Virus record (IMG/VR): IMGVR_UViG_3300027969_000269
Coordinates: 1 to 33,572 of that record
Direction: 5' to 3' (one strand)
DNA from: a virus
Length of the DNA stretch: 33,572 bases
Below, piece after piece: positions 54 through 30,618 of this stretch (positions are counted from its first letter, which is position 1; every line of letters begins with the position of its first letter). The notes under the pieces are model-generated. The model ran no database searches and was not told the DNA's origin. It saw only the letters and a program-made list of their open reading frames with translations. A program made the translations under genes and the position numbers.

Positions 54-314
54 TTAGGGTTCATCTGTATAGTATTTATCTGAAAAAGCGTTTCTATTTA
101 ATTTTGGAAACCAATAATTTTCAGTATTAACACGAACATTTTGACCAATTAACTTGGCAAAATCAGCCATGTCTTTTTCGGTCTTAAATGATATTTTAAT
201 AGTTTTAAATGGTATTTCTGGGGTCATAATAAACTCAGGCATACCCTTCCATTCTTTTTTGAATAAATCTAGATCTTCAACTATTTTAAGTTCTGGTTGT
301 TTTTTATTTTTCAT
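54..314 (-). CDS. Conserved small phage protein, function unknown
   Basis: This 86-residue protein has a core reading FKTIKISFKTEKDMADFAKLIG followed by NTENYWFPK. I recognise this pattern (a hydrophobic strand, then 'F-A-K-L-I/V-G-Q', then a W-F/Y-P motif) from small phage proteins often found near ParB-like or methylase genes, but their function is not known to me. The ATG at 314 is preferred over upstream in-frame starts at 371 and 335 because those would lie deep inside the preceding gene; the chosen start overlaps that gene by only 11 bases. It is the last gene of the left minus-strand operon. Existence as a gene is well supported; function is open. Confidence 0.75.
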   Translation of the reverse strand: MKNKKQPELKIVEDLDLFKKEWKGMPEFIMTPEIPFKTIKISFKTEKDMADFAKLIGQNVRVNTENYWFPKLNRNAFSDKYYTDEP

Positions 315-522
315 TTTTTGGTAAATTTGGAACATAAAATGGTTGCCAAAGTGAAGCTTCAATTTTTTCACAATCCGCAGGAAATGTTGCTATAATCCAA
401 CCTTCATCTTCTAAATAACAACCATACCACATTTTTTCACCTTTATCTGTATTAGCATATAACCAGATAATTGTCCCATCTTTAGGCGCCGTTTCAATCG
501 GTAGCCAATCGTTGTTACTCAT
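304..522 (-). CDS. DUF551-like small phage protein
   Basis: The 72-residue product begins MSNNDWLPIETAPKDGTIIW and ends with a W-Q-P-F segment and 'PNLP'. The WxPIETAPKDGTxIxLY opening followed by a Trp-rich C-terminus ending in a W-x-P motif is the signature of the DUF551-type family common in phage genomes, whose role is unknown. The ATG at 522 is chosen because the longer form, starting at 588, would overlap the upstream gene by about 70 bases and adds residues absent from the family. With this start the overlap is 8 bases. It belongs to the left minus-strand operon. Confidence 0.75.
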   Translation of the reverse strand: MSNNDWLPIETAPKDGTIIWLYANTDKGEKMWYGCYLEDEGWIIATFPADCEKIEASLWQPFYVPNLPKNEK

Positions 523-736
523 TTGTTTTGGTTGGAACAAGCTTGCGCCATTTATCCAGCGATTGACGGATTTCTGACGTTGTTCCATTTAACATAAGCA
601 GCGCAAGGTTATTGCCAGCCGCTTCAAGCGCTTTAACGCGCGCTTCCAACGTCATTAGTTTGTTATGGTTGGTAATACCCGAAACTAATTCATCGAGAGT
701 CACCATTGGCACTTCATTTATTTTTTCTTTGTTCAT
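515..736 (-). CDS. Small helical protein, unknown
   Basis: A 73-residue protein of unknown function. The middle (about residues 25-50, LMTLEARVKALEAAGNNLAL) has heptad-like spacing of Leu/Val/Ala and probably forms a short coiled coil. The ATG overlaps the stop of the upstream lysozyme-like gene as ATGA (733-736), which implies translational coupling and supports this start. No enzyme motif is visible. Confidence 0.65.
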   Translation of the reverse strand: MNKEKINEVPMVTLDELVSGITNHNKLMTLEARVKALEAAGNNLALLMLNGTTSEIRQSLDKWRKLVPTKTNE

Positions 737-1206
737 AGTTTGAAAATGTTTTCTACGCGTTCAGCTGCGTCTTTTTTTTGTAGGGGTGCTAGGTCAGGAT
801 CAAAGTTTATTTTTTTGAAATCAGAATAACCCATAGCAAAACAAAGGTATAATTGTTGTGGTGTAGGATTTGATACCCCACCATCTACAAGTCTTTGCTG
901 ACATTTTTTAATGTAGCCGTAAGCTATGTCGCGCTGAGCTTCTTCACTCTGCCATTCTCCCCACCGCCAAGCGCGTCCATTTCTTTTTTTTATATACTCA
1001 GCGCCTTCTTGCCATGCAGGAAAATGAAGCTGCCATGCCCCACGTGCTAGACGGCGATCGCCAACGGCTTTGTAATTAAAACCTGACTCGACCATCGCAA
1101 CGGCTTGAATAAACTTGGCGTCGGCGTATTGCTCGGTCGAAGCGCCATCAAGCGACATTAACTGAGCTGCTGTAAATACTAGGTATATTGATAGATCTGC
1201 TGACAT
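733..1206 (-). CDS. Lysozyme/lytic transglycosylase-like endolysin
   Basis: This 157-residue protein carries an SLT/goose-type lysozyme-like core: FIQAVAMVESGFN at about residues 32-44, with Glu40 as the likely catalytic acid, followed by AVGDRRLARGAWQLHF (47-62), which matches the 'A-V-G-D-x-G-x-A-x-G-x-x-Q-L' stretch after the catalytic Glu in lytic transglycosylases. It would cleave the glycan strands of peptidoglycan, most likely for host lysis. The ATG at 1206 is preferred; a TTG at 1266 would add 20 basic residues. The N-terminus (SIYLVFTAAQLMSLDGAS) is hydrophobic, so export by a signal peptide or signal anchor is possible. It sits among early-type small genes, far from the holin-like genes at 26.8-28.0 kb. 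Family assignment rests on motif reading only. Confidence 0.65.
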   Translation of the reverse strand: MSADLSIYLVFTAAQLMSLDGASTEQYADAKFIQAVAMVESGFNYKAVGDRRLARGAWQLHFPAWQEGAEYIKKRNGRAWRWGEWQSEEAQRDIAYGYIKKCQQRLVDGGVSNPTPQQLYLCFAMGYSDFKKINFDPDLAPLQKKDAAERVENIFKL

Positions 1207-1299
1207 TTTTTTATTGGAATAATCCCTATGGGTTATTGGTATATTTTTATTTTTTTTCTTTGGCAAGTCTTTTTTAGCAAAATATTTATATCAAAAAAA

Positions 1300-1641
1300 T
1301 CATGAGTTTATGTAAATATATTCCTTAATCTCACGAACCACCGCCTTCTGCATATCTTCCGACGTAATCAATTCTTTGGATATGAATTGGGCAACGTCGC
1401 GGGTGATCGGTTTCTCGGTTTTATCAAGCTGCAATATATCGGTAGGCGTCCATATACCAGCATAGACCTGACAGCGCTCAGATAGGAAAGCGCCCATATT
1501 GTAAGCTATAAACTCGATTTGGCTAGAGCTTGGTTGCCTATGCGATTTTACTAGCCGAATAGCCAGCTTAAAAGCCGCAATCATATCCTCGTCCTTAGCC
1601 GATATGCTTGGTTGCACGTCGGCAGATTGTTCTAATTCCAT
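1300..1641 (-). CDS. Hypothetical protein
   Basis: A 113-residue soluble, mostly helical protein that I do not recognise. The centre holds an aromatic segment around residues 42-66 (FIAYNMGAFLSERCQVYAGIWT) and the C-terminal half is charged. It starts at a clear ATG 6 bases after the stop of the next upstream gene and ends 93 bases before the lysozyme-like gene, consistent with one minus-strand operon. No catalytic or DNA-binding motif is apparent. Confidence 0.6.
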   Translation of the reverse strand: MELEQSADVQPSISAKDEDMIAAFKLAIRLVKSHRQPSSSQIEFIAYNMGAFLSERCQVYAGIWTPTDILQLDKTEKPITRDVAQFISKELITSEDMQKAVVREIKEYIYINS

Positions 1642-1647
1642 TGTTAT

Positions 1648-1914
1648 TTACTTCTTAGGTGGGCGAACAATGTCATCAATTTTATCGTAGATAGATTGAG
1701 CTTCTTGACTTACATCTATCTCTTTAACTCGATCCCATTGAGATTTAGTTATATTTGAACCAATTAAATCCTCAAAGTCATCTATGGAAAAAATCAGGAA
1801 AACGGCGTTGCGCTTGCACAATTCGAGCGTTAGATCGTCCATTGATACTTTAGACAAATCAGGTTTATGCGTTAGCTTGCTGCCTTCGCGCTTATGGTTT
1901 TTAGGTTTTTTCAT
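1648..1914 (-). CDS. Hypothetical protein
   Basis: An 88-residue protein with a basic N-terminus (MKKPKNHKREGSK) and an acidic, helical remainder (FSIDDFEDLIG, KIDDIVRPPKK). I do not recognise a family. The ATG lies 3 bases beyond the stop of its upstream neighbour and its stop is 6 bases from the next start, so it is embedded in the operon. The charge split could suggest nucleic-acid or protein binding, but nothing shows this directly. Confidence 0.6.
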   Translation of the reverse strand: MKKPKNHKREGSKLTHKPDLSKVSMDDLTLELCKRNAVFLIFSIDDFEDLIGSNITKSQWDRVKEIDVSQEAQSIYDKIDDIVRPPKK

Positions 1915-1917
1915 AAA

Positions 1918-2208
1918 TTAGTAAGAGATCTCAAATTGAGTAGTGTCATCTTTTCTAGGTATAGCTGTAAGAAAATAGCCAACCCGATTGACGTAATGCT
2001 TTCCGTCAACGATAACAATGTCCTTGCCGTCATCGGTTTCCATATACGTCCAGATAAATCGGTGATCCTGTTTATTAACAAGATCCAGCTGAGCGCCATA
2101 GGTTTCAAACATGAAACCATTTACAGGCGCGTTCTTCTCAAATGGATTAAGGAAGGGTTTATACTCATCTGCCCAATCCTTAAAACTCATTTTAATCAAT
2201 TTAGACAT
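1918..2208 (-). CDS. Conserved small phage protein, unknown
   Basis: The 96-residue product matches a pattern I know from many phage small proteins: F-x-x-W-x-x-E-Y-K-P near the start, then NGFMFETYG, then IWTYMETDDG and a closing HYVNRVGYFLTAIP. The family is widespread in phages and its function is unknown. The ATG at 2208 is chosen because it sits 4 bases after the upstream stop, whereas the upstream in-frame start at 2277 would overlap the previous gene by 65 bases and is absent from the family pattern. Confidence 0.7.
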   Translation of the reverse strand: MSKLIKMSFKDWADEYKPFLNPFEKNAPVNGFMFETYGAQLDLVNKQDHRFIWTYMETDDGKDIVIVDGKHYVNRVGYFLTAIPRKDDTTQFEISY

Positions 2209-2212
2209 AGTA

Positions 2213-2752
2213 TTAAACAGATCCTTGACCTGTCTCCATAGCTTCGGCGATTGAATAAAATCCTCCGCATGAGTCAATCATCTCGCCTTGTTCATTGTAT
2301 ATTCTGAAAGCAAAAACCTGACCATTCAGATAGCTGCCGTAATTTTCAATCTCATGCTCTAAGTATTCTTTAACTTTCTCTATTCGCATAGCTTCAGATC
2401 CCATGCGTTTCAAATTGTCTTTGGTGCAATAGATAAAACCAATTTGTCCGCTGTCCCATTGACAACTAAATCCAGACGTTGAAAGCGCAACGCCACCATG
2501 CTCATACATATATACAGGCAAGACACAAATTGCGCCAAGCTGTTGCTCAATGAAGTTTTGCAAATCTTCAAACGATCCAAAGTCATCTCGGTTTAATTTA
2601 GTCTTATCACCCAATTTATATTTATGGTGAAACGCTACGATTGTGCCAAAATTATCCCAATCGCGGGGATTATCTGGGCTATCATCATATACGATTGCGA
2701 TTGTATGATTTTTGTATTCTATTGTTTCTATGGCGTCTTTTAGGTTTTTCAT
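2213..2752 (-). CDS. Conserved phage protein with S/PWDSGQxGFIY motif
   Basis: This 179-residue protein has a recognisable arrangement found in a widespread phage family of unknown function: PRDWDNFGTIVAFH near residue 30, LPVYMYEHGGVALST near 80, then FSCQWDSGQIGFIY around 94-107, and a C-terminal segment with LNGQVFAFRI and DSCGGFY. The invariant-looking Trp, Asp, Gly and Cys residues suggest a folded domain rather than an unstructured accessory protein. The length fits the family. It lies in the middle of the left minus-strand operon, 9 bases after its upstream neighbour. Confidence 0.75.
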   Translation of the reverse strand: MKNLKDAIETIEYKNHTIAIVYDDSPDNPRDWDNFGTIVAFHHKYKLGDKTKLNRDDFGSFEDLQNFIEQQLGAICVLPVYMYEHGGVALSTSGFSCQWDSGQIGFIYCTKDNLKRMGSEAMRIEKVKEYLEHEIENYGSYLNGQVFAFRIYNEQGEMIDSCGGFYSIAEAMETGQGSV

Positions 2753-2761
2753 GGTATTGTA

Positions 2762-2977
2762 TTAGGTTAATTGTTTGTAGTTAAATGAGAAAATGCAAAA
2801 CCCTGTTATGTCGCTAATCCTGTCAGCAATATAATCCTGTAAGCTATCCGCGTCCTGAATGTCATCAGGCACGTTGATAGATATATTAGGGGGAAGATCT
2901 AGCTCATTTAAGCTATTAGAATTATCGGTGTCATAAACAATTCTAGTGACGTTATATCTTTTTGTTTTTGTTTTCAT
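2762..2977 (-). CDS. Small conserved phage protein, unknown
   Basis: A 71-residue protein of the type 'YNVTRIVYDTD ... LPPNISINVPDDI ... DYIADRISDITGFCIFSFNY'. Small proteins with this order (a basic start, a V-P-D-D segment and a terminal 'S-D-x-T-G-F-C' stretch) recur in phage early operons; no activity is known to me. The ATG is 9 bases from the upstream stop and the leader TTTACTTTC/ACCTT-like region has no Shine-Dalgarno sequence. Confidence 0.65.
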   Translation of the reverse strand: MKTKTKRYNVTRIVYDTDNSNSLNELDLPPNISINVPDDIQDADSLQDYIADRISDITGFCIFSFNYKQLT

Positions 2978-2986
2978 AAGGTGATT

Positions 2987-3307
2987 TTACTTTCTAGGTA
3001 TTAAGGTGACTAGGATTAGCCCGCGATACTTGGCGCTTCCGTAAATGATTTGAGTGGTCAACCCAACGCTGCGATTATCTCGCTCGGCGTGTTTGGCAAT
3101 CGCGCGGGCGTCAGCCAAACGTTCAACGCCAATCAAGAATAGCGCTTCATCAGGCACACCAATAAGAGACTTAACGTTGCCGTCAGCTCTTAGGTTATAC
3201 ACTTCGTCAGCGGTCATTGGTTCAACGTCCGAAAGCCAAGCAGCGTGTTGTAAAATGCTGTTATGCTCGCGGGTTTTTTCGATAATAATGTCAGGGATTT
3301 TGTTCAT
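2987..3307 (-). CDS. First gene of left minus-strand operon, hypothetical
   Basis: A 106-residue protein starting MNKIPDIIIEKTREHNS. It mixes helices with a strand-rich C-terminus (GLILVTLIPRK); no family is recognised. The ATG at 3307 is preferred over a TTG at 3319, because that TTG lies inside the probable -10 box (3316-3321) of the promoter for this operon. With that promoter the transcript would begin almost at the ATG, so the mRNA may be leaderless or nearly so. It leads a run of ten minus-strand genes down to position 54. Confidence 0.6.
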   Translation of the reverse strand: MNKIPDIIIEKTREHNSILQHAAWLSDVEPMTADEVYNLRADGNVKSLIGVPDEALFLIGVERLADARAIAKHAERDNRSVGLTTQIIYGSAKYRGLILVTLIPRK

Positions 3308-3315
3308 AGACTTAA

Positions 3316-3345
3316 ACAATACACCTACCCCGATACCATAGTCAA
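3316..3345 (-). promoter_or_regulatory. Probable sigma70-type promoter for the left minus-strand operon
   Basis: On the minus strand TTGACT (3340-3345) is followed after 18 bases by TATTGT (3316-3321). Both hexamers are close to the sigma70 consensus. The predicted start of transcription falls at or within a few bases of the ATG at 3307, implying a leaderless or very short leader. The upstream side is the T-tract (A-tract on this strand), which could act as an UP element. Confidence 0.5.
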
Positions 3346-3346
3346 C

Positions 3347-3463
3347 TTTTTTTTATTTTTTAACCCATCTTTTTTTATACCCCAATGATCTGGTTATTTT
3401 TTTTATTTTTTTTTAACAGGTATTTTGCCGCCTATGGGTGTTTTATTTTTTTTATTTTTTTTT
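3347..3463. repeat. Four T-tract repeats (T8-A-T6 to T9)
   Basis: T8-A-T6 at 3347-3361, T7-A-T at 3370-3378, and two identical 18-base copies TTTTTTTTATTTTTTTTT at 3397-3414 and 3446-3463. The copies are separated by short mixed sequence, so this is a dispersed motif rather than one homopolymer. Such tracts bend DNA and melt easily. Confidence 0.8.
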
Positions 3464-3505
3464 ACTCCAAGCCGCCGCGCCGCGCGGGATCTGGCAGCTG
3501 ATTGC

Positions 3506-3523
3506 TAACCTGATTAACCTGAC
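3506..3523 (+). repeat. Tandem 9-bp iteron-like repeat
   Basis: TAACCTGAT (3506-3514) is directly followed by TAACCTGAC (3515-3523). A related CTGATT precedes at 3498-3503, and a near-inverted copy (ATCAGGTA) lies at 3593-3600. This could be a binding array for an initiator or repressor; only the repeat itself is directly visible. Confidence 0.5.
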
Positions 3524-3643
3524 AATTATCTGGGAGATAAAAACCCAAGAATTAACTAGGCATTAAATCCCGCGTTAATTTACCCGAAAATTATCAGGTA
3601 ATAAATTAACAAAAAATTGCCAAATATATCAATGCACTTTTTC

Positions 3644-3855
3644 TGCGCGTGTGTGCGCGTGTGCGCGCGTGTGCGCGTGTGCGCGTGTGTGCGCGTGTGC
3701 GCGCGTGTGCGCGTGTGCGCGCGTGTGCGCGTGTGCGCGCGTGTGCGCGTGTGCGCGTGTGCGCGTGTGCGCGCGTGTGCGCGTGTGCGCGCGTGTGCGC
3801 GTGTGCGCGTGTGCGCGTGTGCGCGCGTGTGTGCGCGTGTGTGCGTGTGTGTGCG
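3644..3855. repeat. 212-bp alternating purine-pyrimidine (GC/GT) tract, Z-DNA-prone
   Basis: Every step over these 212 bases alternates purine and pyrimidine without a single break. The + strand is made only of TG, CG, GC and GT steps, arranged as irregular repeats of GTGTGCGCG units. Sequences of this kind are the classic substrate for left-handed Z-DNA under negative supercoiling. Open frames exist in all registers simply because no stop codon can form; I call no gene here. Both borders are sharp: TTTTTC before, GCGAGGGC after. Confidence 0.9.
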
Positions 3856-3997
3856 GCGAGGGCGGCAAAACGTCAGGCGGCGCAATCTGTCGGCGCTCGA
3901 CGTCGCAAATCGATCCACGACCCCGCCGCGCGCTCAAATTGCGTAAGCTGCAAATGGGTTCAAATAGCTATTGCGCAAGCCGTCCCATGTCTCAGGC

Positions 3998-4011
3998 GTT
4001 TTGATCAAAAC
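3998..4011. promoter_or_regulatory. 14-bp perfect palindrome, operator candidate
   Basis: GTTTTGATCAAAAC is a perfect palindrome 121 bases before the first island gene. Its symmetry suits a dimeric repressor. No bound factor is identified. Confidence 0.35.
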
Positions 4012-4050
4012 AGCTTGCCAAGCTAGCCGCCAAAAATACCCGCCTGAAAA

Positions 4051-4093
4051 AAGTCAAAAATTGTTGATTGACTTGCAAGCGCCTTTCTATCAA
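4051..4093 (+). promoter_or_regulatory. Candidate promoter with overlapping inverted repeat
   Basis: AAGTCAA (4051-4057) and TTGACTT (4068-4074) form a perfect 7-bp inverted repeat. It overlaps a weak promoter candidate: TTGATT at 4064-4069 and TATCAA at 4088-4093 with an 18-base spacer. This lies 39 bases before the ATG at 4133 and would drive the GC-rich island, with the repeat as a possible repressor site. Confidence 0.35.
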
Positions 4094-4132
4094 TCTCTCA
4101 AATGTCATTAAGACACCAACCAATAAAACCCA

Positions 4133-4579
4133 ATGAACACCGAACAAAAACACGACGAAGCGCTTAACAGCGCCGCCGCATTATTAACCCTAGCTTGCGC
4201 AGCGCTTGAACGCCAATTCAACAGCGCCGTCGATCTAAAGCTCTTTGCTCGACGCGCCCGCAAGGACGCTGAAAAGGTCGCGCGTTACGTCGCGCAAGGA
4301 CGCGACGCTACCGAAGCGCGCGCAAGCGCTCAAGAATACGCCGCCGCAGCTGAAACAGCCGCCGCCGAAGTAAATGAGCGCCTAGAAGAAATTAAGACAG
4401 CTTGCGCCCAAGCTCGCGAGCTTTGCAAACCCTTTGAAGCGCGCCACGATTGGCGCGACGGACTTGGCTTGATTGAGCGCCGCCTTTTCATGAAGCTCGA
4501 CGAAGCCAACCGCAGGGCAACCGAAGCTGCCGCAAATCTTGACGCCGCGATTGAAAGCGCGACCTGCGCCCGCCAATAA
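4133..4579 (+). CDS. Ala/Glu/Arg-rich helical protein, first island gene
   Basis: A 148-residue protein, almost entirely predicted helix, rich in Ala, Glu and Arg, with long coiled-coil-like stretches (for example ATEARASAQEYAAAAETAAA around residues 60-80). I recognise no family. Codons are strongly GC-rich (CGC for Arg, GCC/GCG for Ala), unlike the AT-rich flanking arms. The ATG follows an A/C-rich leader (AATAAAACCCA) with no Shine-Dalgarno sequence. It opens a run of eleven plus-strand genes closed by the terminator at 8534. A structural or DNA-organising role is possible but not shown. Confidence 0.6.
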   Translation: MNTEQKHDEALNSAAALLTLACAALERQFNSAVDLKLFARRARKDAEKVARYVAQGRDATEARASAQEYAAAAETAAAEVNERLEEIKTACAQARELCKPFEARHDWRDGLGLIERRLFMKLDEANRRATEAAANLDAAIESATCARQ

Positions 4580-4641
4580 CCCCCGCGCTGTTTCGATCCT
4601 AGCTGTCCCACTTGTCACACCTTCCAACCCAATCCCAACCC

Positions 4642-4947
4642 ATGAACGCCCCCGACCTTCACCCCTTAGTGAAACAAAGCTCTTACGTGCCTGAGTTTGA
4701 CCTAATGACCCCGCGCAAGGATCCTGCGCTCGACGCGCTGCGCCTTGCCTTTATTGCCGCGCTAAATCTCGAACAAGCCGCGATTGACCTTCACATGTCC
4801 CGCCCGCTAGCTAAGCGCAAGCCCGACGAGCTTCACGCGCGCGACGTCGCGCATGAGAAAACCCTTATTCTTTATTGCGCTTTGAAAGACTATTCTAGCC
4901 GCTTTGATGAAGAAGGGCTTGGGTATTCTTATCTTCATCAAAGCTGA
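4642..4947 (+). CDS. Hypothetical GC-rich island protein
   Basis: A 101-residue protein beginning MNAPDLHPLVKQSSYVPEF. The centre is helical (LDALRLAFIAALNLEQAAIDLHM), the C-terminus more aromatic (YCALKDYSSRFDEEG). No family recognised. The ATG at 4642 is preferred over a TTG at 4612; the intervening 30 bases are C/A-rich leader of the same type seen before the other island genes (CAATCCCAACCC). Sixty-two non-coding bases separate it from the previous gene. Confidence 0.55.
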   Translation: MNAPDLHPLVKQSSYVPEFDLMTPRKDPALDALRLAFIAALNLEQAAIDLHMSRPLAKRKPDELHARDVAHEKTLILYCALKDYSSRFDEEGLGYSYLHQS

Positions 4948-4980
4948 CTAAGCCGCCCCGCAATCTCGATCCTTCCCTCC

Positions 4981-5310
4981 ATGAACAAAAGACAAACCGC
5001 CGTTGACCGCGCCAACCGCACCGAAGCGGCAGCGCTCGAAACACTTAGCCGCGCCGCCGAAGCTTGCAACGCCGCGATGGACGCGCACACCCGCGCGACC
5101 AAGCGCTGCGCTCAGGCGCGCGAAAAAATCCACGCCGCGCGCGACGCCGCCGCCGCGCTACATGCGCTAATTTGCGCCGAGCTGGACGCCAACCCCGCCA
5201 ATCCCCGATTGATTGAGCTTTACCATGAAACTAAGGCGCTCGACGCCCGCGCGCATGAACGCCTTGAAACTATCAACGTATTGATGGACAGCTGCCCCTT
5301 CCAAAATTAA
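4981..5310 (+). CDS. Ala-rich coiled-coil protein
   Basis: A 109-residue protein of near-continuous helix (NRTEAAALETLSRAAEACNA, then ATKRCAQAREKIHAARDAAA). It resembles in composition the proteins at 4133 and 7137, so the three may be diverged paralogues or simply share the island's Ala/Arg bias. The start follows a pyrimidine-rich leader (CCTTCCCTCC). No functional motif is visible. Confidence 0.55.
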   Translation: MNKRQTAVDRANRTEAAALETLSRAAEACNAAMDAHTRATKRCAQAREKIHAARDAAAALHALICAELDANPANPRLIELYHETKALDARAHERLETINVLMDSCPFQN

Positions 5311-5319
5311 GCCGCCGCC

Positions 5320-5520
5320 ATGCCTTACCTTAATACCGATAAAACCGCCGCGACGATTGCCGCGCTCATGCGCGCCGCCGAAGATTACAACTTGGGCGAT
5401 TTTGATGACCGCGCGGCGATTTGCCGCGAGCTTGCGCGCGACCTAGCCCGCGAGCTATCGATCGAAACCGAAGCGCGCGCAGCCGCCTTGCGCGACGCCG
5501 AAAACGACCGCGCCAACTAA
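5320..5520 (+). CDS. Small acidic/basic helical protein
   Basis: A 66-residue protein, MPYLNTDKTAATIAALMRAA..., with an acidic bend (YNLGDFDDRAA) between two helices. No family recognised. It begins 9 bases after the previous stop in the context GCCGCCATG and is followed 11 bases later by the next gene, so the island genes appear to be read as one transcript. Confidence 0.5.
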   Translation: MPYLNTDKTAATIAALMRAAEDYNLGDFDDRAAICRELARDLARELSIETEARAAALRDAENDRAN

Positions 5521-5531
5521 CACCCGCCGCC

Positions 5532-5774
5532 ATGATAATAACAATACAGCTGGACGGCATGGGATCAATCCACGCATGGCGCGGACGCGTCGAACCTTTC
5601 CGCGTAAGCTCTTACCTTTACACCGCCGACGGAAAGGAAGCTGAGCTATTTATTCAGGAAGGGATGGGCGCGGAGGAAGCGCTTGAATACTTAACGACGC
5701 GCGAGCGCCGCGAGCTTGCGCGCGGGTATTCGATCCAAACCAAAAACCTTCCTGAGGACTACTTTCCCTATTAA
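5532..5774 (+). CDS. Small mixed alpha/beta protein, hypothetical
   Basis: An 80-residue product starting MIITIQLDGMGSIHAWRGRV. Unlike its Ala-rich neighbours it has alternating strands (IITIQL, RVSSYLYTA, AELFIQEG) and ends in an aromatic tail, so it probably folds as a compact domain. An in-frame opening extends back to 5421 without an ATG in good position and would overlap the previous gene, so the ATG at 5532 is used. The family is unknown to me. Confidence 0.55.
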   Translation: MIITIQLDGMGSIHAWRGRVEPFRVSSYLYTADGKEAELFIQEGMGAEEALEYLTTRERRELARGYSIQTKNLPEDYFPY

Positions 5775-5794
5775 CCCTTTCCCTACATACACAC

Positions 5795-7117
5795 ATGAAC
5801 CAACCAACCCAACCCACCCCAACCCCACTAGTCAACGTTCACGCTTTGACCTACATTGAAACCGCCTCGCATGGATACTTGCGCGCGCCGTTTGATGAGC
5901 TGTTAAAGCTGCCGCACTACGAGCTGGACAAAATCACGCGCTATTCACTCATCGATCCACGCAAGCGCCTAGCTTACTTGGAAGAAGATTGCGACCTTGC
6001 GCACTTTATCCGCGCCGCGCAAATCAGCGCCGACGATTGGCAACGCGTCCCGCGCGACCACGTTGACGAAATAGACCGCGCGCCGCTTGCGCAATTTGCC
6101 CCCGCGCTTATCAAGCCCTCCAATCGCTTGACGATTGACGCGGGAAGGAAAAAGCTTGCGCGCGCCTTCGCCTTTGTAGCTGCCGCCATGTCCATCGATC
6201 CAAACCGCCAAGCGCTCAACGGCGTCCAGCTTGAAATAGAAAAAGGCAAACGACTTGGCTTGTTAATCGCGACGGACGGACGCCGCTTGCATGCTTATAG
6301 CTTCGAGCTTGCCCATGTCGCGCCTTGCGACCTTAGCGCGTTAATCCCGCGCGAAGCTGTTGAAAATTTGATCAAACCCCGCGCGACGCTTAACTTCAAA
6401 CGCGTCGAAAAAGAGAAACACAGCGGACAAATTGCCATGACATTTGAGCGCCACGAAGCTCTCAGCGATTGGCTTGCGCCGATTTGGATCGAGATTGACG
6501 GCGAGCGCTATAAAACCGAAACAGCTTACACCTTCCCCAAATGGCGCCAAGTAATCCCGAAAGACCGCCAGCTTACCGCGCCGCTTGACATAAGCTTACT
6601 AGCTGCCGCGCTCGACGCGCATGAACGCGCTTGCGCCGACTTTGTAGCCGATTGCCTTACGCTCTCAGCGCCACGCATACAAGGCGCCTTCGACGTTGGC
6701 GGCGCTGCACATCATGACCGAACAAAGAAAGACATTGAGCGCCAAGCTAAGCGCGAGCTGCGCGCGTCAACCCTAGCGGAAAATCTAGCTATTGAAATTA
6801 TCAACCCTGAGCGCTACCAATACTTAGCGCTGCCCAAGCTGCGCCAGCTTATAGCAAAAATAGAAAACAATACCCCGCGCCTGACTTCGACGGACAGCTT
6901 CGATCCTGACGCGCATTTGAACTTGCGCGCGGAATACGTCCGCGACGCCGTTGAAGCTTGCGCCTTGCTTAACCAGCCGCCCGCCGTTGACGTTGACTTA
7001 GACCCCATAAAACGGACGCCCAAGCTGTCCCCAATCCAATTTGGGAACGCCGCGCACCTTACCAGCTCGACATGCAGCGGCTACGTTTTGATCATGCCCA
7101 TGCGCTTAACCGCTTAA
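5795..7117 (+). CDS. Beta sliding clamp homologue with N-terminal DUF7007-like domain
   Basis: This 440-residue protein appears to be a DNA polymerase III beta clamp (DnaN) homologue carrying an extra N-terminal domain. Residues 25-75 (SHGYLRAPFDELL, then RLAYLEEDCDLAHFI) resemble the DUF7007-type domain of phage and plasmid proteins. From about residue 115 clamp features appear in order: LARAFAFVAAAM, LNGVQLEI, IATDGRRL (158-165, the ATDGHRL motif of DnaN), TFPKWRQVIP (246-255, matching the Y/F-P-x-x-x-x-V-I-P motif of domain II), LRAEYVRDAVEA (377-388, domain III) and a terminal YVLIMPMRL (430-438), the hallmark DnaN C-terminus. It would form a ring that tethers a polymerase to DNA. No polymerase or clamp loader is in the window. 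It is the longest gene of the GC-rich island. The clamp call is strong; the N-terminal domain name is from memory. Confidence 0.75.
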   Translation: MNQPTQPTPTPLVNVHALTYIETASHGYLRAPFDELLKLPHYELDKITRYSLIDPRKRLAYLEEDCDLAHFIRAAQISADDWQRVPRDHVDEIDRAPLAQFAPALIKPSNRLTIDAGRKKLARAFAFVAAAMSIDPNRQALNGVQLEIEKGKRLGLLIATDGRRLHAYSFELAHVAPCDLSALIPREAVENLIKPRATLNFKRVEKEKHSGQIAMTFERHEALSDWLAPIWIEIDGERYKTETAYTFPKWRQVIPKDRQLTAPLDISLLAAALDAHERACADFVADCLTLSAPRIQGAFDVGGAAHHDRTKKDIERQAKRELRASTLAENLAIEIINPERYQYLALPKLRQLIAKIENNTPRLTSTDSFDPDAHLNLRAEYVRDAVEACALLNQPPAVDVDLDPIKRTPKLSPIQFGNAAHLTSSTCSGYVLIMPMRLTA

Positions 7118-7136
7118 CCTTAACCCGCCTAAGCTC

Positions 7137-7451
7137 ATGACCTTTGACAATACACCCACCGCCGTCCGCGAAGCCAACCGCCAGCTCATGAACGCGCAAG
7201 CTTGGCTATCCCGCAAACGCACCGAATACAAACGCGCCCGCGAGGATCTAGCCCGCGCCGTCGATTGGGCGCGCGACTATCATGACAAGCTTCCAACCTT
7301 GCCCGCCGATTTGGTCGAGAAATACGCGCGCGAGATTGGCGCAGCTGCGATTGAATACATGGACGCCCGCGAAGCTTACGACGCCGCCACCGAAGAAACC
7401 ACGCGCGCGCGCGAAGCTTACAAAATGGCAACCCAGAAAAATCCCTTATGA
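7137..7451 (+). CDS. Coiled-coil protein, hypothetical
   Basis: A 104-residue, highly helical protein: ANRQLMNAQAWLSRKRTEYK, later AIEYMDAREAYDAATEETTR. The alternating acidic and basic residues with regular Ala/Leu/Tyr suggest a two-helix coiled coil. No family recognised. It begins 19 bases after the clamp gene and its stop overlaps the next ATG (ATGA at 7448-7451), so it is translationally coupled downstream. Confidence 0.55.
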   Translation: MTFDNTPTAVREANRQLMNAQAWLSRKRTEYKRAREDLARAVDWARDYHDKLPTLPADLVEKYAREIGAAAIEYMDAREAYDAATEETTRAREAYKMATQKNPL

Positions 7452-7651
7452 ACCATAAAACATACGAAATACACCCCGAGGATCGACGCGATTGGCAGCG
7501 CGCAATCCCGCAGCCGCCCCTCCCGCCGCGCATTTACCCGCCGCGCCCCAATAGCTACCAGCTACTGAGCGCGCGAGTTTTAGGCGTCGAGATTAAGCTG
7601 ACCGCGCACCGCCAACCGCTGCGCTTAACCCTCAACGCGTCAATCAAATGA
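7448..7651 (+). CDS. Small Pro/Arg-rich protein
   Basis: A 67-residue protein with a Pro-rich centre (AIPQPPLPPRIYPPRPNSYQ) and a strand-rich C-terminus (LGVEIKLTAHRQPLRLTLNA). It overlaps both neighbours by ATGA junctions (7448-7451 and 7648-7651), which is the main support for it being real. Function unknown. Confidence 0.5.
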   Translation: MNHKTYEIHPEDRRDWQRAIPQPPLPPRIYPPRPNSYQLLSARVLGVEIKLTAHRQPLRLTLNASIK

Positions 7652-7842
7652 GCTCCGCACAAACCCCCGACCTTGCCGCGACCTTAACAGCTGCGCAAGC
7701 TGCCGCAGCCGCCGCCCAATCCCCCGAAGATTGGCAGCGCGCCGCCGCCTTGCTAGCTCTAGCCCGCGCGCTTGCCCAAGCTCACGCCGCCGCCGCCCGC
7801 GTTAAACCATTAACCCCCTCAAACCATGCCCAAAAAGTTTGA
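7648..7842 (+). CDS. Small Ala-rich helical protein
   Basis: A 64-residue protein dominated by Ala (LTAAQAAAAAAQSPEDWQRA). It starts at an ATGA overlap with the previous gene and its last 17 bases overlap the next one. The low complexity makes coding status less certain than for its neighbours, although the overlaps at both ends fit the island's compact organisation. Confidence 0.45.
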   Translation: MSSAQTPDLAATLTAAQAAAAAAQSPEDWQRAAALLALARALAQAHAAAARVKPLTPSNHAQKV

Positions 7843-7996
7843 TCCCGAAACACAAGCCCGCCGCGATTTTATACGCTGGAACTTGGCAAACCCGCCGCCT
7901 GATTTTCACAAGCTGCCCGCCGAAACCCGCCGCCGTATAAAGCGCGACGCGCTCAACAGACTTAATGGCAAACCCTCAACACTTAAAAAAACCTAA
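7826..7996 (+). CDS. 56-residue basic protein, hypothetical
   Basis: This short frame encodes MPKKFDPETQARRDFIRWNL and ends RLNGKPSTLKKT. It is basic (many Arg and Lys), with an amphipathic helix around RRRIKRDALNRL, and may bind nucleic acid. The ATG follows the typical C/A-rich leader (CCCCCTCAAACC). It overlaps the end of the previous gene by 17 bases in another frame and stops 12 bases before the next ATG. The D-P-E-T-Q-A-R-R-D-F-I-R-W-N pattern looks like a real protein rather than chance. Confidence 0.5.
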   Translation: MPKKFDPETQARRDFIRWNLANPPPDFHKLPAETRRRIKRDALNRLNGKPSTLKKT

Positions 7997-8008
7997 ACAA
8001 ACCAACCT

Positions 8009-8509
8009 ATGAAAAAACCCAAAAAGAAAAAACCCACCCGCCGCCTTGCGCCTTACCCGCCCGAGCTTGGCAATCCGCGTCAACACTTAGGAGAAAAGCG
8101 CTTTACCCCCATGGGCGTTTGGATCGGTCGCGACCCCGCCTTTTTCGTCGGGATTGATGAACACCACGCTTTGATCAAATCGCGCTGCCCTGAGGCGTTC
8201 AGGGCGCTTGTTAATTGCGCCTATAAGCTGCATGGCTTCGATTGCATACTTTGCAACGTCGGCGAAAGCGAAGCTATAAGCGAAGCTATTGAACACGTTG
8301 AGCAGCTCGCCGCTGGAATTGCCCGCTGGATCTATGGGGACAGCGCCCAAATCTACCACCAGCGCGACCCGCGCGGCTGCCCTCTTTACGTCCAATGGGA
8401 TAAAATGCCTGACAGATTGCGCTCTATTTGGGACAGCGAGCGCGGGCTGCCAATCTATTTAGAGCTGTCAAAAGAATGGCGCGAAGAATGGGAAGCCGAT
8501 CCTGAATAA
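8009..8509 (+). CDS. Conserved phage-type protein with YHQRDPRGCPLYV motif
   Basis: A 166-residue protein with a Lys-rich start (MKKPKKKKPTRR) and a C-terminal half containing AEHVEQLAAGIA-like helix and IYHQRDPRGCPLYVQW at about residues 117-132. The 'Y-H-Q-x-D-P-R-G-C-x-L-Y' motif is one I have seen in uncharacterised phage and plasmid proteins; function unknown. It is the last gene of the GC-rich island and is followed directly by the terminator at 8534-8560. Cys and His residues (LHGFDCILCNVG) could bind metal, which is speculative. Confidence 0.6.
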   Translation: MKKPKKKKPTRRLAPYPPELGNPRQHLGEKRFTPMGVWIGRDPAFFVGIDEHHALIKSRCPEAFRALVNCAYKLHGFDCILCNVGESEAISEAIEHVEQLAAGIARWIYGDSAQIYHQRDPRGCPLYVQWDKMPDRLRSIWDSERGLPIYLELSKEWREEWEADPE

Positions 8510-8591: not shown

Positions 8592-8814
8592 CAGCGCGCA
8601 GCTCGACGGACGCGCGGCGCTCGACGTCGGCGCGAGCTACCCCCACTAAGAAATCTATTTGAGGGGAGGGAGGGGGAGGGCGCTTTAGAAAGCCCACCCA
8701 GCTAAAAACCATTTTGTATTATCAAATTTATGCACTTTTTGATATGTCGGTTATACGATCTGATATACGTGACTTACATATATGGTTGACATATATCGCG
8801 ACATAGAAATTAAC

Positions 8815-8952: not shown

Positions 8953-9294
8953 ATGAAAAACCAAAAACCTAACAGCCGCCGCCACTTTTCTGGATATTGG
9001 AAAAAGATCTGGAGTAGGAACCGCGAGAACATGACTAACCACATCAACAATCTGAACCGCCAGAAAACCCAGGCGAGTTTGGAGAGGGTGAAACTTGTAA
9101 AGGCAATCATCAGTAACTTGCCCAAAGAACCCATGACGGCAAGCCGCCTTCGTGATCAGGTGTCGGAGTATTGGCAAGAGTTCTATGGCGATGAAATGAC
9201 CACCACGAAAGCTTGGTGCCTGACTAGACTTTGCATAAAGCATGGCCTATTCCTAAGACAGTCCAACGGCATGTATATAATTAACGTTGACTAA
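8953..9294 (+). CDS. Probable winged-helix regulator or small phage DNA-binding protein
   Basis: A 113-residue basic protein. The N-terminal part (FSGYWKKIWSRNRENMTNHI) and the C-terminal LVKAIISNLPKEPMTASRLR followed by CLTRLCIKHGLFLRQSNGMY read like a winged helix: a helix pair, then 'I-K-H-G-L-F' leading into a beta wing. DNA binding is inferred from this fold-like pattern only. It is the first gene of the AT-rich plus-strand arm, after the structured leader, a position that suits a regulator. The start follows TAAACATTT with no Shine-Dalgarno sequence. Confidence 0.5.
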   Translation: MKNQKPNSRRHFSGYWKKIWSRNRENMTNHINNLNRQKTQASLERVKLVKAIISNLPKEPMTASRLRDQVSEYWQEFYGDEMTTTKAWCLTRLCIKHGLFLRQSNGMYIINVD

Positions 9295-18962: not shown

Positions 18963-19538
18963 ATGGATAGCCGCTATACACAGTCCGTAAAGACTTCCAT
19001 ACTCAAAATGGAAGTGGGTGGTTATGTAATTTTACCAATTACATTAAGACATAGGTTGATATTGGAGGATATTGAGTCTCCAGCTGTATTTACCGATAAG
19101 GTAATGTCCCCTCAGGATCTGATTACAGCTATAAAAATACTATCAACACATAACCTAGAAGAAATGCTAACTTTAAAAGTTAAAGAGCAAGACAGCATTT
19201 TATTGTTAAAGTTTCTTAATGATAATGATTACTATTTATCTGAATTAGGTAAATTGACTGAGTATATTTCAATGCAGGAAAATCACCCTGTAATTTGGGA
19301 TAAGAAAGAAAAGAAATCTAAGACAGGTATAAACCTAATACTATCGTGTATTACAGGTTTAATGAAGATTGGCCTAACTTACGAACAAGCTTGGACAATG
19401 CCTGAAAGTGAAGCTATTTGGATGTATGTTTCTAACGCTATTTCGGAAGGCGCAGAAATAGTAATAATAACCGATGATGATATTAAAGCTATGGAATTAG
19501 CTCAAAAATTATCTGAGCAATATAAGAAAAACAAATGA
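18963..19538 (+). CDS. Tail assembly chaperone-like protein
   Basis: A 191-residue acidic protein located immediately before the tape measure gene, the usual place of tail assembly chaperones. The segment LPITLRHRLILEDIESPAVF and the C-terminal LTYEQAWTMPESEAIWMYVS (residues about 138-157) followed by a helical ALQKLSEQ-like end fit this class, whose members bind the tape measure during tail assembly. The stop overlaps the tape measure ATG (ATGA, 19535-19538). No convincing programmed frameshift was found. Confidence 0.55.
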   Translation: MDSRYTQSVKTSILKMEVGGYVILPITLRHRLILEDIESPAVFTDKVMSPQDLITAIKILSTHNLEEMLTLKVKEQDSILLLKFLNDNDYYLSELGKLTEYISMQENHPVIWDKKEKKSKTGINLILSCITGLMKIGLTYEQAWTMPESEAIWMYVSNAISEGAEIVIITDDDIKAMELAQKLSEQYKKNK

Positions 19539-21055
19539 GCGACGAAGTAAAAATTAAATTTGTAGCGGATACGTCTGGGTTAAGTAACGTTAAAATTCCA
19601 GGTCAGATCGAAGCCGAAGGCGGTGGAAAACCACCTACGCCACCTAAACCGCCTACGCCACCTACGCCACCTACGCCGCCTACACCACCTACGCCGCCTA
19701 CGCCGCCGCCAGGTCAGCCAGGAAGTAGTTTGCCACCCCCTCTACCTGGTCAACAGAAAACAGTCGTTTCAAAACAAAGTAGGCAGCCATTCCCCTGGGA
19801 AAAGGGTTATAGCGAACAATTTAGTAATGAGCTAACTTCTAGTCTAGCTTCAACATTATCTGGTTTTAATTTATTTACAACAGCACTAAACGCTGGCGCC
19901 GAAGCAGCAAAGATGTTTGTTCAAGCCATTCAAGAAGGAACACAGTATGCTAGAACAATCCAGAAAACATCTAGAATAACAGGTTTATCAACCGACGAAG
20001 TTCAAAAATACGGCTACGCTGCTCAAATGACAGGTGTAAGCATAGAGACATTTACAAATGCTATGGCAAAGGCAAATGAAGTTCTAGGACAAGCTAAAAT
20101 GGAAGGTGGCGCTGGTGTATTGGCTTTTAATCGTCTCAAGATCAGTATGGCTGGTGTTAGGGACGGAAGTGTTACAAACATTGATATATTAAAACGACTT
20201 TCTGACGCGTATAAAAACAATGCTGGTGACGCTGAAATAGCTCGTATTGGAACCCAATTACTTGGTAACGAGTTTAAGAACATGATACCTTTGTTAAGAG
20301 AAGGATCATTAGAAATAGAGAAATTAGCCAAAAATGCGCCTCATCTTACTCAATCAGAAATACAATCAGCTGCACAAGCTAATAGATCTTATACAAACTT
20401 AAAAGAAACTTATGAAGCTAAAGCTTCAGGTGAAGTATTTGGATTTGAAAGACAAACAAGATTAACCAAAGATCAAATTTTAAGCCAATATAATTCTGGT
20501 AAAATTTCTAAAGAAAAAGCTGCTGATTTACTTTCTCAGACTACAGATGTATCTATTGACCAAACCCATGCAAATACAGGTGGTTTTGGTGCTGCTGCAG
20601 CAGCAGGATTTTTTGGTTTGCTTCAAGGTGGTGTTATTAGAGGTTATGAAGCATATCAAACTGTTAGAGCAGGAACAAGTCGTGTTACAGCGCCAGATAT
20701 AAACAAATTTGGTGCTAGGTATCCAGGCGAGTCACAAGGCGAATTTATTGCTAGATTGAAGTCCGAAGGTATAGGCAAGACACAAGCTGGTCTAGACGTA
20801 TTGAACGAGCTTGAAAAACGTAACACCAAGAAAGAAGATCTAAATGTAGGTATTTTCCAAGCTGCTTCAAGTCTGCAAAAAGTTGGCGGTGGTGACGTAT
20901 TATCTGCCGTATCAAGAGTAAGCGCTCTTGAGAATATTGATAAGAATACCGAGAGATCTGCTAATGCACTAGAGACTATTGCTGCTGGACAAGGCGGCGG
21001 TTCTTCCGTAAATACTCCACCACCAGCTGACACCAATAACCAAGTAGCAAAATAA
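19535..21055 (+). CDS. Tape measure protein with Pro-rich tract
   Basis: A 506-residue protein that would set tail length. From about residue 120 it shows the tape-measure pattern: TSRITGLSTDEVQKYGYAAQ, MTGVSIETFTNAMAKANEVL, then FNRLKISMAGVRDGSVTNID and LKRLSDAYKN, as in prophage tape measures that start with 'G-x-S-x-D-E-x-Q'. Residues 33-59 form an unusual PTPP repeat. A Gly/Ala-rich hydrophobic patch (GFGAAAAAGFFGLLQGGVI, about residues 350-368) may insert in a membrane. The length predicts a short siphovirus-like tail, of the order of 75 nm by the usual rule of thumb. Confidence 0.75.
   Translation: MSDEVKIKFVADTSGLSNVKIPGQIEAEGGGKPPTPPKPPTPPTPPTPPTPPTPPTPPPGQPGSSLPPPLPGQQKTVVSKQSRQPFPWEKGYSEQFSNELTSSLASTLSGFNLFTTALNAGAEAAKMFVQAIQEGTQYARTIQKTSRITGLSTDEVQKYGYAAQMTGVSIETFTNAMAKANEVLGQAKMEGGAGVLAFNRLKISMAGVRDGSVTNIDILKRLSDAYKNNAGDAEIARIGTQLLGNEFKNMIPLLREGSLEIEKLAKNAPHLTQSEIQSAAQANRSYTNLKETYEAKASGEVFGFERQTRLTKDQILSQYNSGKISKEKAADLLSQTTDVSIDQTHANTGGFGAAAAAGFFGLLQGGVIRGYEAYQTVRAGTSRVTAPDINKFGARYPGESQGEFIARLKSEGIGKTQAGLDVLNELEKRNTKKEDLNVGIFQAASSLQKVGGGDVLSAVSRVSALENIDKNTERSANALETIAAGQGGGSSVNTPPPADTNNQVAK
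19631..19711 (+). repeat. 9-bp coding repeat encoding PTPP units
   Basis: The codons of residues 33-59 of the tape measure protein are built from tandem CCGCCTACG or CCACCTACG nonamers, giving Thr-Pro-Pro repeats. Only third positions vary, so the repeats may expand or contract by slippage without loss of frame. Confidence 0.85.
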
Positions 21056-29979: not shown

Positions 29980-30618
29980 TTATTTAAGAAAAACTCCCCA
30001 TTGTAAAGCCATAGCTTCAGCAATTCCTTTAAAAGTTTTACTATAATTTTTTGAACCATTTACAGCACCACTTTTATAACTTTGACCCCTAGAAACTCCA
30101 CCTGTATTTGAAGGCAAATACGGCCTGTATTCTGTTAAAATATTTGTAGGTTTCAAATTTGGTAAATTCTTTAACCATAATAAAGTTTTCTTACTGTAAG
30201 GATCTCCAAATTGATAAGGTTGTATAATGCAAGATGGTTCTGGCATTTGAACTACTTTCAAAGGAAATGGGTTTTCTATCGCTATATATTTTATAGGTGC
30301 TTCATAGAGTTTCATAAAAAACTCTTTAGCCATCATCGCTTTATTATATCTGTCTTGATTTAATACTCCAGCTGGTTGGAACATCCATCTTGCGCCAGCT
30401 TTGCTTAAATAGGTGCAAGGTGGGTGAGCAATCATCATGCTATATTTTCCACTATAAGCTTCTATCAATGCGTCTCCTGAAATATGCCATTCTGGGTGTC
30501 CTCCGCTACACTCTTGAATGTCACAACTATATGCTTCGTATCCTAATTTTCTAAATGCTTTGCATACAGCTTGGCTTTCTTCACAAGCAATTAAAATTTT
30601 GTTTTTTGTTTTTGTCAT
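29980..30618 (-). CDS. Cytosine methyltransferase-like protein lacking a target-recognition domain
   Basis: A 212-residue protein with motifs of the C5-cytosine methyltransferase fold: ILIACEESQAVC (8-19; SAM-binding region), SCDIQE (31-36), AHPPCTYLS (64-72; the catalytic Pro-Cys pair, Cys68) and AIENPFP (113-119; the E-N-x motif). It is about half the usual length and has no visible target-recognition domain. This matches short phage proteins of this type, whose substrate is unclear. It could modify phage DNA or act with partners. It lies 17 bases upstream of the primase gene. Confidence 0.65.
   Translation of the reverse strand: MTKTKNKILIACEESQAVCKAFRKLGYEAYSCDIQECSGGHPEWHISGDALIEAYSGKYSMMIAHPPCTYLSKAGARWMFQPAGVLNQDRYNKAMMAKEFFMKLYEAPIKYIAIENPFPLKVVQMPEPSCIIQPYQFGDPYSKKTLLWLKNLPNLKPTNILTEYRPYLPSNTGGVSRGQSYKSGAVNGSKNYSKTFKGIAEAMALQWGVFLK

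Follow-up and report, generated by a model that had tools for sequence, protein, structure and literature searches.

A 212-bp stretch of perfect purine-pyrimidine alternation lies between two divergent operons of an uncultured phage. Relatives have tracts of this class at the corresponding site, with the repeat unit and the strand changed. We propose, giving it a little less than an even chance, that this tract has been maintained for its effect on DNA topology and buffers supercoils by a B-Z transition between the operons on either side. The window analyzed here is the whole 33.6-kb IMG/VR viral contig IMGVR_UViG_3300027969_000269 (33,572 nt).

Sequence and Setting of the Tract

A preliminary description of the window had reported an unbroken 212-nt alternating tract of 212 steps. 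The maximal run of purine/pyrimidine alternation is exactly 3644-3855, 212 nt without a break, although the number of steps is 211. Read on the plus strand, it consists of 106 YG dinucleotides (53 CG and 53 TG) and never contains CA or TA; the uninterrupted alternation in CG/CA steps that defines Z-DNA-forming sequences extends over all 212 nt. Elsewhere in the window, the longest such run has 14 nt, which is at chance level: when the sequence outside the tract was simulated with a first-order Markov model (300 trials), the maximum run averaged 15, and the highest was 26. TRF describes the tract as an 18-bp tandem array (11.9 copies, 91% matches), with mainly 8-bp GTGTGCGC and 10-bp GTGTGCGCGC units, so that it also qualifies as a simple sequence repeat (microsatellite). 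This make-up indicates that the sequence is built by repeat expansion; the odds of 10^-65 calculated under independence thus refer to such an expansion rather than to 211 separate events, and the even length of the units accounts for the perfect alternation. Several open frames cross the tract on both strands, but trivially so, since CG/TG steps cannot form a stop codon, and the change of unit and strand in relatives argues against a protein-coding repeat. The longest exact repeat inside the tract is 79 nt, so that short-read assembly with k of at least 80 can resolve it, although the tract length in the window could still be collapsed by assembly.

The tract was also said to lie between divergent transcription units and next to T-tracts, and this holds: the leftward genes end at 3319, T-tracts occupy 3347-3464, and the first rightward gene starts at 4133 (Table 1). 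From left to right, the order is leftward promoter-like site, three T-runs, spacer, tract, and rightward promoter-like site, the last (TTGACT-N17-CAATCT) being contained in the 278 bp between the tract end and the first rightward gene. One relative (L099) has TTGACA-N17-CAATCT at the rightward promoter-like site, and in another (G002) the equivalent position is occupied by a TTGACA site. The sites are putative promoters; a scan with the promoter consensus gave as many matches as chance gives. Terminase, portal, capsid, and tail genes are on the plus strand from ~10 kb onward.

Table 1. Features of the window in and around the alternating tract
Feature	Position	Strand	Basis or remark
Leftward AT-rich operon	54..3319	-	Permuted ends: continues 33546-27977 (helicase, phosphoesterase, methyltransferase-like, primase/helicase)
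Promoter-like site TTGACT-N18-TATTGT, leftward operon	3316..3345	-	Consensus match only, not above chance expectation
A/T-tract block, three long T-runs (A-runs on leftward strand), start-to-start ~49-53 bp	3347..3466	-	Conserved with G002 and L233
Spacer, AT-rich toward tract, imperfect inverted repeat 3517-3541 / 3575-3599	3467..3643	.	May serve as operator or for unwinding
Unbroken alternating (C/T)G tract of 212 bp, potential Z-DNA; repeat array of 8- and 10-bp units	3644..3855	.	Alternation run and TRF
Promoter-like site TTGACT-N17-CAATCT, rightward operon	4068..4096	+	Consensus match
Rightward GC-rich operon, 55-60% GC vs ~40% elsewhere	4133..8509	+	Includes sliding-clamp-like protein 5795-7117

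Several other features of these genomes were recorded. In the window (4133-8509), in L224 (~2000-7700), and in L099 (1-4000), the GC content of the rightward operon exceeds that of the remaining genome by 10-15%. The window (5795-7117) and L099 (1306-2844) each encode a protein related to the sliding clamp of DNA polymerase III (PF02767), while the rightward operon of G002 has a MoxR-like AAA protein and a DUF7192 protein instead. A DNA methyltransferase-like protein (phrog_757; window 29980-30618) is also present in the unrelated tract-bearing contigs L208 (60%) and L436 (40%); CpG methylation by this protein as a stabilizer of Z-DNA was considered and dropped, as no homolog was found in G002 and the specificity is unassigned. 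A 9-bp CCACCTACG repeat at 19630-19707 codes for a proline-rich (PPTP) linker in gene 19535-21055. Positions 8660-8705 are probably a cos site or a physical end of the genome; the starts of about 20 related contigs fall 190-290 bp upstream of the 8953-9294 homolog, and many of these contigs have a GGGCGTCGAAGACGC-like hairpin with CACCCCGGAAAAAAGGCGGGGGTA after it.

Tracts at the Same Site in Related Phages

Terminase relatives were gathered from viral contigs, and a separate scan for (YG)x40 was run independently, yielding 34 stretches in 2.9 million viral contigs. One scan match (L185) shares its contig with a terminase relative (L026); this contig, 3300043409_001052 (G002), has amino acid identities to the window of 69% for terminase, 89% for capsid, and 73% for primase. 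G002 is 39,330 bp long with an 839-bp end overlap at 97.4% identity, which makes it close to a complete circular map, and its gene order is that of the window, including the lysozyme-like protein, helicase, phosphoesterase, and primase. Its tract of 246 bp (7472-7717; longest internal exact repeat, 77 nt) lies between divergent operons at the syntenic site, upstream of its own GC-rich rightward operon, and is adjoined by a T-run block that can be aligned with that of the window. In the gene direction of the window, the G002 tract is made of ACGC units and is thus on the opposite strand from the window tract.

Two further relatives begin inside a similar tract. L099 (terminase 76%) opens with 36 nt of it, followed by the GC-rich operon and the clamp-like gene; L233 (helicase 68%) opens with a perfect tract of 54 nt and continues with 130 nt that are 93% alternating, with an A/T block 300 bp farther on and then the leftward operon. 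The repeat unit differs between relatives (GTGTGCGC in the window versus ACGC), and the strand of the tract relative to the genes is in the window opposite to that in the other three. Position and alternation persist while unit and strand change, which speaks against a sequence-specific or transcribed element and makes it likelier that a strand-symmetric property of the duplex is kept; this is the signature expected if such a property is what counts. The preliminary description had named the absence of any such tract from this site in close relatives as a ground against its reading; G002, L099, and L233 do have one.

Not every relative carries a tract. L028 (terminase 75%) spans the divergent region and has none. 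In the records of a clade at 60% identity, no alternating run of 24 nt was found, and the rightward GC-rich operon is absent as well. L241 has at the corresponding site (103-149) a G run of ~45 nt, which could represent another kind of non-B element or an error of sequencing. Among contigs that end nearby, G044 stops ~230 bp beyond its own A/T block and L235 starts at an A/T block; both fit a contig break at a tract, without displaying one. The near-identical strains L009 and L232 stop short of the tract site. A scan with the A/T-block pattern returned only L185 and L233, both tract carriers, the pattern being derived from these same sequences and hence not independent. The clamp-like protein as a probe gave mostly unrelated partial matches but yielded L099, whereas the early gene 2213-2752 matched unrelated phages. 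A (CGTG)n scan found no further member of the window's phage family, and a near-identity search of phage records gave no match. L436 has a short A-run near its tract, and its only family gene is the distant methyltransferase-like match.

Tracts in Other Phage Lineages and in Bacteria

CG and TG are mixed in 27 of the 34 viral stretches. Among the bacterial matches listed, which are a sample, 72 of 80 stretches are pure (TG)n and 2 are mixed. The preliminary description had called long perfect tracts rare in bacterial and phage DNA; this holds with a correction, since (TG)n tracts do occur in bacteria, whereas mixed CG/TG tracts were seldom met among the bacterial matches listed and are the prevailing type among the viral stretches. 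Short-read assemblies may break at such tracts, so that their number is probably under-counted. Among the matches listed, many Prevotellaceae and other Bacteroidales MAG contigs (L311-L390) have long (TG)n tracts, often at the contig end.

Tracts at corresponding places were seen in the paired related contigs L194/L213 (56-74% amino acid identity), L189/L206 (30-84%), and L190/L204 (65-88%). L096 and L199, which are unrelated to the window family, share one gene 3.3 kb from the tract but on opposite sides relative to the tract strand, which is a strand flip. The longest flanking ORFs read away from the tract on both sides in L189, in L194, and in L197/L210 (two ends of one contig), while the tracts of L199 and L203/L217 look co-directional and not divergent; these orientations are tentative, since ORF calls in GC-rich flanks are noisy. 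With somewhat less confidence than for the window itself, we suggest that long mixed CG/TG tracts may recur in phages as a class of element under selection. They would be supercoil buffers made of Z-DNA, independent of exact sequence and strand-symmetric, lying mainly at divergent promoters and keeping their position in several unrelated lineages.

A Candidate Supercoil Buffer

In the twin-domain model, transcription departing in both directions leaves negative supercoils between divergent promoters. The tract lies upstream of two putative divergent promoters, and transcription away from it on both sides would leave negative supercoils there. An alternating CG/TG duplex could absorb these by a cooperative flip to Z-DNA, the flipped length rising with torsion; the torsion at both promoters would then stay nearly constant, and each operon would be shielded from the other. 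We calculated this transition with a statistical model of a single growing Z run, using the published B-Z energies of 0.7 kcal/mol per CG, 1.3 per TG, and 5 per junction (PMC3024258). The calculated onset of the flip is at sigma ~-0.025 for a 33.6-kb domain and ~-0.035 for domains of 2.5-5 kb; the residual sigma stays at ~-0.022 to -0.026 until the tract is exhausted, by which point ~38 turns are absorbed. The earlier suggestion of a supercoil sink is thus energetically plausible by calculation.

The same-site tracts in relatives, the changed unit and strand, the persistence in other lineages, and the calculated capacity lead us to favour the buffer as a predicted function. It is also consistent with the 60%-identity clade, in which both the rightward GC-rich operon and any 24-nt alternating run are missing. 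Against it are the tract-free L028 and the G run of L241, which unless an artefact fits a general low-complexity hotspot, together with the co-directional appearance of some tracts in other lineages and the fact that the promoters are consensus matches only; moreover, no Z-DNA-binding protein was recognized in the window. On our reading, the two operons would be active at the same time, the tract would adopt the Z form in the cell, and selection would act on the buffering that it provides.

The main rival is neutral or nearly neutral simple-repeat expansion, which we consider somewhat unlikely. The gap between the operons would in this case be a slippage or recombination hotspot, at which functionless CG/TG or poly-G arrays arise and decay repeatedly. 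In favour of this, the units of the tandem array differ by 2 bp, L241 has a G45 run at the same site where L028 has no tract, and a strand flip fits repeated origin; furthermore, slippage in even-length units preserves alternation automatically and at no cost, so that perfect alternation alone is not evidence of selection. It is harder to explain by such expansion that tracts would have arisen independently at one site in four genomes (conserved proteins 60-76% identical), when ~34 stretches of this class were found in 2.9 million viral contigs, and that the same positional persistence is seen in several lineages. In addition, repeats that are unstable in E. coli are expected to disappear from compact phage DNA unless kept.

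An origin element had been suggested as well, and we regard it as improbable that the tract is part of a replication origin, with the A/T block as the unwinding element, the inverted repeats as initiator sites, and the Z tract as a flank that tunes opening or stalls forks. A/T runs ~50 bp apart and inverted repeats do adjoin the tract, the A/T block is conserved, and the divergent position is central. However, no iterons or other origin signature were recognized, the cumulative GC-skew minimum is at ~8.5-9 kb, away from the tract, and an origin that depends on its sequence would hardly show such changes of strand and unit.

DRT3, a reverse-transcriptase anti-phage defense, makes a poly(CA/TG) duplex, and the authors of that study suggest that Z-DNA may be a signal (PMC13174585); by this analogy the tract might be a counter-defense or defense-sensitive structure, e.g., a decoy for Z-DNA- or GT-repeat-directed immunity, but nothing in the window points to it, and we think this very improbable. 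Least probable, and already largely refuted, is an assembly or sequencing artefact: the tract is of low complexity, and several relatives have contig breaks within or close to it (L099, L233, the G044 end, the L235 start), but same-class tracts come from different samples at the syntenic site, two of them with unique flanks on both sides, and their longest internal repeats (79 and 77 nt) are resolvable by usual k-mers.

Comparison with Known Systems

Judged by capsid (28% over 96% of its length) and terminase (23%), the cultured phage closest to the window is Verrucomicrobia phage P8625, which has all annotated genes on one strand and hence, unlike the window phage, no divergent region. A Verrucomicrobiota host is plausible from kinship with P8625 only; a search of bacterial and archaeal genomes with the capsid gave nothing, so no prophage relative was found there.

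It has long been asked whether Z-DNA serves a conserved function in bacteria and in their viruses. The tract is a specific element on which this can be tested, and both its capacity and its threshold are predicted. In the open-access literature that we searched, no description of a Z-forming tract conserved in position among phages was found, and a recent review describes non-canonical structures in phages as largely uncharted (PMC12607565).

The window tract is, like the compound dinucleotide microsatellites of bacterial genomes, a tandem array by TRF and probably spreads by slippage. Bacterial tracts of such length are almost all pure (TG)n among the matches listed, whereas the window tract is mixed CG/TG with its site conserved between divergent phages. 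The strong gyrase site of phage Mu is a central topological element, where gyrase binds a specific sequence. Like the tract, it is a non-coding element proposed to manage phage genome topology; it acts through gyrase binding, whereas the tract is compared with it by proposed role only. There is also a likeness to the Z-DNA-forming sequences d(CG)n and d(CA/TG)n, with which the tract shares perfect alternation, CG/TG steps only, a low B-Z energy, and a predicted supercoil-driven flip. The phage tracts are at 212-246 bp far longer than the 32-bp inserts discussed in PMC3024258, and they are conserved in site.
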